Below, in pieces: positions 7,037-9,825 of a stretch of DNA of 12,155 bases (position 1 is its first letter; every line of letters starts with the position of its first letter). Under the pieces are notes generated by a model. It was not told the DNA's origin and did not search any database. It saw nothing but the letters and a program-made list of their open reading frames with translations. A program made the position numbers and the translations under genes. Origin of the DNA: Lysobacteraceae bacterium (GTDB taxonomy: Bacteria > Patescibacteriota > Patescibacteriia > JAACEG01); NCBI GenBank assembly GCA_011682665.1, contig JAACEG010000021.1:1-12155 (forward strand), given 5' to 3'.

Positions 7037-7588
7037 ATGATAGAAATTAGAATTCATGGCAGGGGCGGGCAAGGAGTTGTGACCGCAGCGGAGCTGATTG
7101 CCATAGCGGCTTTTTACGAAGGAAAGGAATCGCAGGCTTTTCCTAATTTTGGAGTGGAACGAAGAGGAGCGCCGATTGAGTCTTATGCTCGTATTAGTGA
7201 TCAGCCTATTAAATTAAGGTCTCAAATTTATGAGCCTGATTTTATAATTGTTCAAGATGACACCTTGTTCAGTATTATTGATTTATTTAAAGGAATTAAA
7301 AAAGATACAAAAATTATTATCAATACAAACAAAAAATTATCTTTAAAATTAGATGCTAAAAAAGAAAATATTTTATTTATCCCTGCGACAAAAATTGCTT
7401 TGGAAGTTTTAGGAAAACCAATTATAAATACTGTGATGCTTGGCGCGTTCGCCAAATTTTCTGAATTGATTAAACTTACCTCTATAGAAAAGGCTTTAAA
7501 AAGTAAATTTAGTGGAGAAATTTTAGAAAAAAATATCAAAGCCGCAAAACAAGGTTCAATCTTCGGACATCCGAAGGTCGAATCTTAA
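7037..7588 (+). CDS. porG: 2-oxoacid:ferredoxin oxidoreductase, gamma subunit
   Basis: The 183-residue protein has the usual length and pattern of the gamma subunit (POR domain III) of pyruvate or 2-oxoacid:ferredoxin oxidoreductase. The N-terminal HGRGGQGVVTAAE is at residues 7-19 and NFGVERRGAPIESYARI at about 37-53; the latter matches the strongly conserved FGxERRGAPV block. The complex turns a 2-oxoacid plus CoA into acyl-CoA, CO2 and reduced ferredoxin in the cytoplasm. The gene leads a cluster with porD 7 nt downstream and porA further on. A long repeat-rich leader precedes it, and no Shine-Dalgarno motif is seen. The C-terminus (GSIFGHPKVES) includes a small CTTCGG/CCGAAG hairpin at 7560-7575. 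The exact 2-oxoacid cannot be told from sequence alone. Confidence 0.93.
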   Translation: MIEIRIHGRGGQGVVTAAELIAIAAFYEGKESQAFPNFGVERRGAPIESYARISDQPIKLRSQIYEPDFIIVQDDTLFSIIDLFKGIKKDTKIIINTNKKLSLKLDAKKENILFIPATKIALEVLGKPIINTVMLGAFAKFSELIKLTSIEKALKSKFSGEILEKNIKAAKQGSIFGHPKVES

Positions 7589-7595
7589 AATTACT

Positions 7596-7871
7596 ATGAA
7601 ATATAATTTGGCTGTAAAGCCGGGAACAACTAAAAAAAATAAAACAGGCGGATGGCGGACATTCACGCCAACTTTTGACAAGGAAAAATGTATTGGTTGT
7701 GGAACTTGCGCGCGGATTTGCCCAGAAGGAATTTGTCGTCCTAATAAAAAAGGCAAAAAAAATAAGAAAGGCATAATTTATTATGAGCCAGATTTAGATT
7801 ATTGCAAAGGATGTGGGTTATGCGCTGAAAATTGCCCAGCGAAGGCAATAACAATGAAACTAGATAAATAA
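7596..7871 (+). CDS. porD: 2-oxoacid:ferredoxin oxidoreductase, delta (ferredoxin-like) subunit
   Basis: The 91-residue protein carries two [4Fe-4S] motifs: C32-x2-C35-x2-C38-x3-C42-P and C70-x2-C73-x2-C76-x3-C80-P. In this fold each cluster takes three cysteines from one motif and the fourth from the other. The TGGWRTFTPTFD segment before the first motif is typical of PorD. It passes electrons from the catalytic subunits to ferredoxin. A lysine-rich linker (residues 51-58, KKGKKNKK) separates the two motifs and is more basic than usual. The gene starts 7 nt after porG. Its stop lies 1 nt before the left end of the inverted-repeat-flanked GxxExxY cassette that parts it from porA. Confidence 0.94.
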   Translation: MKYNLAVKPGTTKKNKTGGWRTFTPTFDKEKCIGCGTCARICPEGICRPNKKGKKNKKGIIYYEPDLDYCKGCGLCAENCPAKAITMKLDK

Positions 7872-7872
7872 T

Positions 7873-7910
7873 GATGCTAATGACACGAATTATATGCGAA
7901 TGAGGCCAAT
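7873..7910 (-). repeat. Left inverted repeat of the GxxExxY cassette
   Basis: GCTAATGACACGAATTATAT and the following GCGAATGAGGCCAAT form the left flank, 1 nt after the porD stop. In reverse complement it matches the right flank at 8558-8592. Confidence 0.5.
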
Positions 7911-7915
7911 AAAAT

Positions 7916-8510
7916 ATGAGTGATAATTTAATATATAAAGATTTATTTTATAAAATTGTTGGAATATTTTTTGAAATACATAATGAGCTAGGCAGATATA
8001 AAAATGAAAAACAATATGCTGACAGATTTGAGCAAAAGTTAAAAGAAAATTCAATTAATTATTTAGGGGCTGGTGACGAGAGCGCTTTCGTCACGACCCC
8101 AGTTAGCCATCCGGCAACGGGGTAAAAATTTTTAGATTTTGAGGCAAATTTTTCAAATAATTTTTTTAGCCTACCCTAAGGTAAGGTAAAAAAATTTGAG
8201 GAAAATTTGGCCAAAATATGGAAATTGCAAAATTGCAGTAGAAATGGCTCTCGTCACCAGCCCCTGTTTAAGAGAACATCACATTTTACCATCGTTTGAT
8301 GGAGAAAAAAAGAATAGAAATATACCTGATTTTATAATAGAAAATAAAATTGTAATAGATTTTAAGGCAAAGATGATGATTACAAAAGATGATTATCCTC
8401 AAATGTAAAGATATTTAACTACTATTTAAAATAAATTAGGAATTATTGTTAATTTCAGGCAGAAATATTTAAAACCAAAACGAATAATAAATTCTGAAAT
8501 AAAGGAATAA
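7916..8510 (+). pseudogene. GxxExxY-family protein, broken by an insertion and two stops
   Basis: Codons 1-50 (7916-8065) read MSDNLIYKDLFYKIVGIFFE then IHNELGRYKNEKQYADRFEQ, the N-terminus of the GxxExxY family. A 199-bp element then intervenes. Translation resumes in the restored frame at 8271 with REHHILPSFDGEKKNRNIPD and FIIENKIVIDFKAK, the family's PD-(D/E)xK-like core (D, then D/E-x-K). At 8406-8408 a TAA replaces the expected Gln of QMQRYL; a second TAA (8436-8438) again sits where Gln is likely, and the frame continues GIIVNFRQKYLKPKRIINSE to the TAA at 8508-8510. The repaired protein would be 129 residues, close to the family norm of about 125. The family is of unproven function, with a nuclease-like fold predicted. 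Two separate kinds of damage make it very probably dead. Confidence 0.85.
8066..8264. mobile_element. 199-bp MITE-like fold-back element with perfect 18-bp terminal inverted repeats
   Basis: The left end GGGGCTGGTGACGAGAGC (8066-8083) is the exact reverse complement of the right end (8247-8264). Probable target duplications are TATTTA (8060-8065) and TGTTTA (8265-8270), 5 of 6 identical; the shorter TTTA is exact. Removing 8066-8270 rejoins the GxxExxY frame. The interior is also an inverted repeat: about 48 bp from 8127 onward pairs imperfectly with about 8180-8227 around TACCCTAAGGTA. The left arm adds two hairpins: a 22-bp palindrome at 8073-8094, and a bulged stem at 8096-8123 (ACCCC-GTT-GCC with GGC-AAC-GGGGT, loop ATCC). 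No transposase is encoded, so it would need one supplied in trans. No IS family could be assigned from the ends. Confidence 0.85.
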
Positions 8511-8532
8511 TACAAGTCCAATATGAATGATG

Positions 8533-8538
8533 TATAAT
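8533..8538 (+). promoter_or_regulatory. Weak candidate -10 element upstream of porA
   Basis: TATAAT lies 63 nt before the porA start and inside the GxxExxY cassette. No convincing -35 is found about 17 bp upstream. It may let porA be transcribed despite the insertion, but A/T-rich DNA yields such matches by chance. Confidence 0.25.
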
Positions 8539-8557
8539 GATAAATTGTAAATTGTTT

Positions 8558-8592
8558 ATTAGCGTCATTTGCATACATTTGCGTATTGGTGT
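8558..8592 (+). repeat. Right inverted repeat of the GxxExxY cassette
   Basis: ATTAGCGTCATTTGCATACA followed by TTTGCGTATTGGTG ends about 10 nt before the porA start. It is the counterpart of 7873-7910 in inverted orientation. Confidence 0.5.
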
Positions 8593-8601
8593 TATATTAA
8601 A

Positions 8602-9825
8602 ATGAGACAAATATTAGAAGGCTCAAGGGCAGTAGCCAAGACAATAAAATTAATTAAGCCGGCTGTTGTGAGCGCTTATCCAATTACGCCACAGACGCAT
8701 ATTGTTGAGGATTTGGCAAAATTTAAAGCAGACGGTGAAGCGAATTATGAATATGTGCGGGCTGAAAGTGAATTTGCCGCCGCCTCAATTGTTTTAGGAG
8801 CGTCAGCGACAGGAGTGAGAGTATATACGGCGACAAGTTCGCAAGGGTTGCTTTTAATGGAAGAGGTTATTTTTAATATTGCCGGAATGCGTTTACCTGT
8901 TGTTTTGACTTGCGCCAATCGTGGAGTGTCAGCCCCAATCACAATATGGAATGATCATCAAGATGTGATGGCTGTTCGTGATGCTGGTTGGATAACATTG
9001 TTTGCCGAGAATTCACAAGAAGCAGTTGATTTGCATTTATTAGCTTATAAAATAGCTGAAAAAATATTTGTACCTGTAATGGTTAATATTGACGGTTTTG
9101 TGTTGACTCATACTTATGAACCGGTTAAAATTCCAAGCCAAGCGCAAGTTAATAAATTTTTACCAAATTATCATCCAAAAAAAGGGACATATCTTGATGT
9201 GAAAAATCCGCGTACTTTTGGCGCTTTTGCGTCGCCTGCTTATTATATGGAAATTAGGCAGGAGCTTCATGAAGCAATTAGCAATAGCAAAGAACTAATC
9301 AAAAAAGAGATAAATAATTTGGAAAAAATAACTAAGCGAAATTACAAATTACAGATTATAAATTCTTTCCCTCGCCGGCAGAAAGGCAAATTACGAATTA
9401 TTGATAGTGGACTTGTGGAATACTATGGCCTAAGAAATCCAGAAATTATTTTTGTGGCAATGGGTTCAATGGTTGGAACCATAAAAGATTTTATTGATAG
9501 AAATGTTTTCTTTTTTGAAAAAAAAGGATCAAAGGGGATTTCTGCAGGCGTCTTAAAAGTTAGGAGTTTTAATCCTTTTCCATCAGATGATGTAAATAAA
9601 ATTCTAAACAAGGTAAAATTTGTAGCTGTTTTAGATAAAGATATTTCTTTAGGCAAAGAAGGAATTTTAGCGCAAGAAATTAAGGCTGTTGCTTTTAATA
9701 AAATAAAAGCGAAAATTCAAAGTTTTATTGTTGGCTTGGGCGGACGAGACATCACTGGCAAAACTTTAAATAATATAGTAGAATTAATTAAGAAAAAAGA
9801 TAATGAAGTTAAATTTGTGAGTTAA
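8602..9825 (+). CDS. porA: 2-oxoacid:ferredoxin oxidoreductase, alpha subunit
   Basis: The 407-residue protein starts at ATG 8602 (MRQILEGSRAVAKTIKLIKP), which matches the family N-terminus; an in-frame ATG at 8569 would add 11 residues encoded partly by the cassette's right repeat and is rejected. Domain I shows AYPITPQTHIVE, ESEFAAASIVLGASATGVRV, YTATSSQGLLLMEE and NRGVSAPITIWNDHQD, all typical of PorA. Domain II begins with PEIIFVAMGSMVGTIKDFID, and the C-terminus has GLGGRDIT. It forms the catalytic core with the TPP-binding beta subunit, which usually follows directly as porB; none is found here before the next gene. Residues about 247-268 look like an in-frame repeat-derived insert between the domains. 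porA is separated from porD by the 730-bp cassette. Confidence 0.93.
   Translation: MRQILEGSRAVAKTIKLIKPAVVSAYPITPQTHIVEDLAKFKADGEANYEYVRAESEFAAASIVLGASATGVRVYTATSSQGLLLMEEVIFNIAGMRLPVVLTCANRGVSAPITIWNDHQDVMAVRDAGWITLFAENSQEAVDLHLLAYKIAEKIFVPVMVNIDGFVLTHTYEPVKIPSQAQVNKFLPNYHPKKGTYLDVKNPRTFGAFASPAYYMEIRQELHEAISNSKELIKKEINNLEKITKRNYKLQIINSFPRRQKGKLRIIDSGLVEYYGLRNPEIIFVAMGSMVGTIKDFIDRNVFFFEKKGSKGISAGVLKVRSFNPFPSDDVNKILNKVKFVAVLDKDISLGKEGILAQEIKAVAFNKIKAKIQSFIVGLGGRDITGKTLNNIVELIKKKDNEVKFVS
9340..9405. repeat. Repeat-like in-frame insert within porA
   Basis: Codons 247-268 (NYKLQIINSFPRRQKGKLRI then ID) replace what is normally a short linker before the GLVEEY-like block. The DNA reads ATTACAAATTACAGATTATA, then a GC-rich core with GCCGGCAG, then AAATTACGAATTATTGAT. 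The 12-mer AATTACGAATTA is shared with the intergenic hairpin at 6747-6778. Both the base pattern and the position fit a palindromic element tolerated in a loop. Homologue alignment would be decisive. Confidence 0.4.

Follow-up and report, generated by a model that had tools for sequence, protein, structure and literature searches.

MITEs are usually seen as decayed insertion sequences (IS), reduced to their ends and reliant on a single transposase. In type II prokaryotic MITEs, as the passages on them in PMC10969869 put it, the sequence shared with an IS lies strictly in the ends; QMITE2 of Coxiella burnetii is drawn there with a core of 113-145 bp between its ends and with duplications of 7-9 bp. 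The element described here reverses the usual pattern, as its core is kept while its ends vary, making the interior the better preserved part. It lies in a window of 12,155 nucleotides, the whole stretch of DNA that was analysed, which is contig C86 of a 679-kb draft genome (G000, 76% complete). The host would be an uncultured Parcubacteria-type bacterium. The reading that we favor, and hold with good confidence, is that of a non-autonomous DNA transposon whose class-wide core took different ends, serving different IS5-superfamily transposases.

By its anatomy, the stretch 8066..8264 (+ strand, 199 bp) is a MITE. Its left terminal inverted repeat, GGGGCTGGTGACGAGAGC (8066..8083, + strand), defines what we call the type A end and is matched perfectly by the right one (8247..8264, - strand). 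The 18-bp end pattern, allowing up to 3 mismatches, is found twice in the window and never in 200 shuffles. The element is flanked by TATTTA (8060..8065) and TGTTTA (8265..8270), a 6-bp target duplication with one mismatch. The arms reach 25 nt at 92%, the inner 45-nt pair is 71% complementary, and the fold of 8060-8270 has a z of -9.7 as RNA and -10.8 as DNA, with 0 of 200 shuffles as good. The first-pass annotation, made from the window's letters, had reported perfect 18-bp ends, these flanks, an interior folding mostly on itself and two further left-arm hairpins, and all of this is borne out. It also set the element's border correctly: the 6 bases 3′ of 8264 are target duplication and lie outside. 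That the element encodes no protein is true of the window copy, which at 199 bp (below 500 bp) overlaps no listed ORF of at least 80 aa. The conserved core lies at 8118..8236 and is matched on the minus strand by our covariance model R1 at 105.6 bits. Two variants in the same genome, L151 and L158, keep the outer 13 bp of the end, GGGGCTGGTGACG (with one mismatch at one end of L158), and have other inner bases.

The element breaks a GxxExxY / PDDEXK_3 gene, of which the 5′ part occupies 7916..8065 and the 3′ part, to the first further stop, 8271..8405 (both + strand). When 7916-8065 is fused to 8271 onward, with one duplicate removed, the frame runs from SINYL straight into REHHI. This rejoined frame scores 46.8 bits against the GxxExxY model TIGR04256 (cut-off 35), compared with 19.7 for the left piece alone, and has 76 matching proteins, two of which are short, 100% identical over about half of the query and source-less like the window's own proteins. 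P0002 spans the join with 94 aligned residues, 73% identity and 0 gaps, and P0067 spans it with a single 2-residue gap a few residues beyond. Excision restores the frame, as had been claimed, and intact homologues match across the join. There are two more in-frame stops downstream in the rejoined gene, so the insertion is not its sole lesion and the gene has decayed in other ways too. The decayed gene sits inside a 2-oxoacid:ferredoxin oxidoreductase cluster (window 7037-9825), between the ferredoxin-like and alpha subunit genes.

The element is repeated throughout its own genome. At least 41 separate places match it (40 of 92 candidates scored); these include one of type B, and a second query adds five. 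Several copies sit at the end of a contig, a usual position for repeats in draft assemblies; the copies also mark points at which draft genomes break. With up to 3 mismatches allowed, the end sequence has 76 sites in G000, 3 in G001, 1 in G004 and none in G002, G003 and G005; the reversed control has 0. One of the three G001 sites, L162, is inside a coding frame and is probably a chance match. The 24 aligned copies are 159-233 bp long, and many have 6-bp direct repeats such as TATTTA, TAAATA, TACATA, TATATA and TAATTA. An exact 6-bp duplication flanks 16 of 33 end pairs, compared with 4.2 when flanks are re-paired (maximum 11); once four mis-paired or other-type rows are dropped, 16 of 29 are exact and 24 of 29 agree at 5 or more of the 6 bases. 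One element of 36 bp consists of the two ends alone within a perfect 6-bp duplication, which suggests movement without a core, unless the core was lost after insertion. By crude ORF calls, 18 of 29 type A rows and 25 of 35 type B rows lie between co-directional frames (8 rows unclassed). Other copies exist, and the 199 bp are not conserved outside an insertion context; the first-pass annotation had named a failure on either point as fatal to its reading. Its view of a MITE-like element inserted in a gene is strengthened by the copies, the duplications and the empty site, while the mobilisation in trans that it proposed is something that we, too, infer.

Small palindromes at set positions are present in some copies and absent from others. 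One of them, the left arm's bulged-A hairpin, is ACCCCAGTTAGCC..GGCAACGGGGTAAA (about 8096..8126, + strand, its bulged-A part about 8096-8123), which is found, or has a near variant, in 16 of 24 aligned copies and is missing from the other 8. Some copies carry CTGCCTCGCCGGCAGGCAAG, CCCCAGTAG..CTACGGGG or TCCCGCAATACTGCGGGA, and a near match to CTGCCTCGCCGGCAG is found outside the element also. B-type elements on several G002 and G005 contigs contain a nested GTAG-flanked, REP-like palindrome similar to GACGGGTTTGAAACCCGTC, a variant of which stands free once, at L144 (GTAG-flanked palindromes at L144:1755, L023:1476, L034:1574, L097:17, L101:4164, L102:1961 and L164:39). At L046, about 1138-1175, another short insert (CAGACTTTAACTAGGGTCG...) splits the right end of a copy, so that the nesting there is three layers deep.

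The same core is found under other ends across the class. With the window's element as query, 7 of 57 genomes match, its own included; the relatives match mostly over the central part, and many of their copies end in TAGACCTRYTGCRTAAT-like sequence. The core occurs with ends TAGACCTGTTGCGTAAT, GGGTCTGTCGCCGAAT, TGAGGTCATCTCAAAA and more, and both ends of any one copy match each other. R1, which models the core of about 120 bp with ends excluded (cut-off E 1e-4), matches 37 of 380 genomes of the class; its source sequences came from 7 of these 37 (G000, G001, G002, G004, G005, G016 and G037) and from records JAGLOZ and JAUVKU. Among 24 of the 37 genomes, each sampled at a single place, the ends are type B in 7, GGGWCTGTYGCCGAAT-like (type C) in about 13, and of other kinds in the rest. 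Another 40 R1 matches in 14 genomes have ends agreeing at 14 or more of 18 bases in 38 cases, compared with 1 of 460 control placements. Type C copies (GGG type) have an exact 5-bp duplication in 18 of 49 pairs versus 0.9 when shuffled (maximum 5), after 9 of 58 pairs with no GG at either end were left out. Type B (TAGACC type) perhaps duplicates 3 bp; the signal is weak at 13 of 32 rows versus 7.4 when shuffled (maximum 14), with 3 of 35 rows left out that had no TA at both ends.

The ends of 125 rows fall into 7, 12 or 28 clusters at 72, 79 or 86% similarity; this set excludes 2 of the 58 further copies, whose two ends agreed at fewer than 14 of 18 bases. At 79%, types A and C share one cluster, and one of the 12 clusters resembles a decayed type B. 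We dropped the view of A and B as two unrelated ends, as the wider set has many end types and A is close to C. Two genomes are counted under two names each, rows L101 and L107 (named JAGLTA and JAGLJD) being G005 and G002; this affects the core-tree test, the 34-pair mispairs, the end clusters and core identities, and the end mispairs reported here. The titles and abstracts among the literature matches listed do not describe this core family.

In several genomes, copies with much the same core carry different ends. The window copy and the TAGACC-ended L050, from the same genome, agree at 116 of 125 core positions (93%) and at only 7-8 of 18 end positions, where random AT-rich 18-mers agree at 7.0. 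Similarity is thus not confined to the ends, as it would be in a type II MITE. Like cores with unlike ends also occur beyond the window's genome, in G001, G016 and G156; within single genomes, L021 and L027 agree at 111 of 125 core and 6-7 of 18 end positions, L280 and L281 at 100 of 123 and 6 of 18, and L036 and L026 at 100 of 123 and 7-8 of 18. Contig C40 holds both L050 (type B) and a type A copy, so the two types are not a product of mixed binning. Median core identity is 0.82 for copies with different ends in the same genome (87 pairs, G000 dominant) and 0.64 for copies with the same ends in different genomes. Of the ten genomes with several end clusters, six (G061, G116, G118, G101, G156 and G180) have different-end cores with medians of 0.56-0.66, compared with a between-genome background of 0.61. 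For these six and also for G001, a copy's closest core of the same end type in another genome is, by median, nearer than its closest core with other ends in its own genome. The clear cases of recent exchange are consequently limited to G000, G016, one G156 pair and G325, whose ends are less different (10 of 18 alike); in G001 such exchange is likely. Judged by these comparisons, some end types are old lineages and some exchanges are recent. The core alignment had 61 rows, three elements below 140 bp being left out, and the tree 59 after two more were dropped. In that tree, type A rows lie among B rows of the same genus, and the window copy, on a branch of zero length, joins close to the base of the main A group. 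Two end-type changes suffice, and the tree's few columns (117) do not reject a single origin of type A (p-AU 0.27).

Two end types, B and C, have insertion sequences whose ends match theirs. For type C, L177 (G032) is a 1248-bp IS bounded by GGGTCTGTCGCGGAAAG ends and flanked by the 5-bp duplication TTGAA; its 351-aa transposase is IS5/IS1182-like, the best models being IS1182 and IS5, both under cut-off. Of 3619 candidates, 2025 are homologues of that transposase at E 1e-20 or better; among the matches listed, many come with a longest contig of about 1.2-1.3 kb, as a collapsed multi-copy IS would, and such collapse may explain the missing parent in this bin. L174 (G052) is 1256 bp long, with ends GGCCCTGTCGCCCAACAT matching at 13 of 16 bases and a low-complexity duplication TTTTT, and is a weaker case than L177. 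For type B, L184 (G049) is an IS5-like element of about 1.02 kb with ends AGACCTGTTGCGTATT and a 3-bp duplication ATT. L184 and L189 (also G049) have ends TAGACCTGTTGCGTATT and TAGACCTGTCCCTTAAT and DDE_Tnp_4 transposases; L189 has no duplication of 3 bp or more. The core model has no match in L177, L174, L184 or L189 at E up to 1.

Type A ends were not found with a transposase gene by end searches or in a parent search that covered five transposase families (IS630, Y1, PF01609, rve and IS1595), the element's own genome being 76% complete. An exact match to the 15-base type A end GGGKCTGSTGACGAG is limited to G000 and G001 among the 380 genomes of the class, and type A duplicates 6 bp versus 5 bp for the nearest IS type. 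PF01609, the source of the IS in G049, G032 and G052, matches in 10 of 57 genomes, G000 not among them; rve (PF00665) matches in 4 of 6 genomes and IS630 (PF13358) in 0 of 6. Several candidate parents were set aside for having no A-like ends: the IS481-like rve gene L191 in G000, the IS1634 element L173 of G001 and the IS1595 elements, which are present in 9 of 57 genomes. Two IS1595 elements (L208:1433-2267 and L211:1148-1985) have ends GGTAATTAGTG.. and 8-bp duplications; their end GGTAATTAGTG.GTTTCGTAACC resembles the inner part of type B ends, and the L211 end GGTAATTAGTGTGTTTCGTAACC is like the inner part of the type B MITE ends GTAATTAGTTTCGTAACGA. On viral contigs, the three pattern matches are all unpaired and were put down to chance, and the L177 transposase has no relative there.

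These observations fit a model in which the ends (about 13-18 bp) are recognised and paired by a DDE transposase that acts in trans from a gene elsewhere, and the element would insert at AT-rich TAWWTA-like sites with duplication of 6 bp. We infer that the imperfect fold-back core of about 120 bp was conserved while the ends were replaced more than once, by recombination or conversion between copies. Recombination between copies with the same core and different ends could swap the ends, and copying along the fold-back could transfer changes between the two ends; either route would pass the core from one transposase to another. With its ends replaced repeatedly, different lineages of the element, and even two copies on one contig, would be set for different IS5-superfamily transposases. 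The window's own transposase would be one of these.

Two other histories could give similar copies. In one, no ends are exchanged: gene conversion homogenises the cores within a genome while the ends are independently old. This is possible, though we consider it improbable. Concerted core evolution would also make different-end cores alike in one genome and same-end cores unlike across genomes, which is what the medians (0.82 and 0.64) show, G000 dominating the former. However, the seven genomes G001, G061, G101, G116, G118, G156 and G180, with their closer same-end cores elsewhere, indicate that homogenisation is not general, and conversion tracts would have to terminate close to one and the same core/end boundary on each side. 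In the other history, which we find equally doubtful, the ends evolve in place: a change in one end is copied to the other via the fold-back (template switching), and pairs of ends drift until they meet new transposases. Pairing has indeed been kept through changes on both sides in 31 of 40 consensus pairs, parsimony counts 52 direct changes from one Watson-Crick pair to another versus 104 one-sided changes to G-U or A-C, and type A resembles a variant of type C, with GGGTCTGCTGACGAGAGC of G001 as an intermediate. But A and B ends agree at chance (7-8 of 18) in one genome where the cores are 7% apart, a difference too abrupt for drift at one rate. Exchange of ends upon a shared core remains the reading that we prefer.

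The fold-back itself could be read in quite different ways. Were it a functional RNA (a riboswitch, antisense or small RNA), the palindrome would be kept for RNA folding; the RNA fold of 8060-8270 is strong, and yet we regard this as very unlikely. Rfam gave no family at gathering score, the ten matches at E up to 10 all being far below cut-offs, and G-U-tolerant covariation was not seen either. Over 34 consensus pairs in 59 rows, G-U (81) and A-C (82) mispairs are equal, which speaks for a palindrome kept at the DNA level. The ends alone do show 68 A-C versus 29 G-U mispairs on the core-model strand; on the + strand of the window G-U is accordingly the commoner mispair, which RNA folding of that strand would favor. 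The imbalance recurs across genomes: among the 125 rows, where 27 genome labels have at least one end mispair, A-C exceeds G-U in 21 of the 24 labels with a difference. Unequal left and right ends or single-strand damage could be the cause. REP/RAYT and IS200/IS605 elements are generally defined by a Y1 transposase and the lack of a target duplication. Mobilisation of the hairpin by such a rolling-circle or HUH/Y1 enzyme would suit its anatomy, the GTAG-flanked palindromes nested in relatives and the Y1 domain (PF01797) matched in 3 of 6 family genomes. It is nonetheless extremely improbable, as the family makes 5- and 6-bp target duplications with inverted ends, and no Y1 match was found in the element's own genome (76% complete). 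The element lacks the features that define REP/RAYT or IS200/IS605 elements, and the relaxase or rolling-circle enzyme that the first-pass annotation offered as an option is accordingly disfavored.

That a single non-coding core occurs under different ends throughout a class of bacteria with small genomes would account for the persistence of such elements when individual transposases are lost. End exchange also becomes open to testing in naturally occurring copies, including the two that share a contig. It is tempting, if quite tentative, to go further and speculate that the core is the unit of selection, a fold-back chassis repeatedly taking the ends of different IS5-superfamily transposases and surviving the loss of any one, and that its conserved, unequal internal loop near the ends (TACTGC vs CGTTAC) has its own function in end capture or host-factor binding.

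Among described systems, QMITE2 resembles this element in its ends-plus-core layout, and the passages on it in PMC10969869 mention no end exchange on one core. The REP and GTAG-tagged palindromes (PMC3733652) are similar to the small GTAG-flanked palindromes nested in sister elements; the MITE itself differs from them in its long inverted ends and target duplications. The IS5 family and IS1182-like elements have ends that match those of the MITEs (GGGTCTGTCGC.. of L177 for type C, TAGACCTGTTGC.. of L184 for type B) but are about 1.0-1.25 kb long and encode transposases of 299-351 aa (L177, L184 and L189 read). The nearest likeness in build is to the type II MITEs, as outlined in the relevant passages of PMC10969869: like them, the present element is below 500 bp and AT-rich, has inverted ends within 4-30 bp and flanking duplications, folds stably and is presumed to be mobilised in trans by an IS. 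In contrast to that description, here it is the interior that genomes have in common and the ends that vary.
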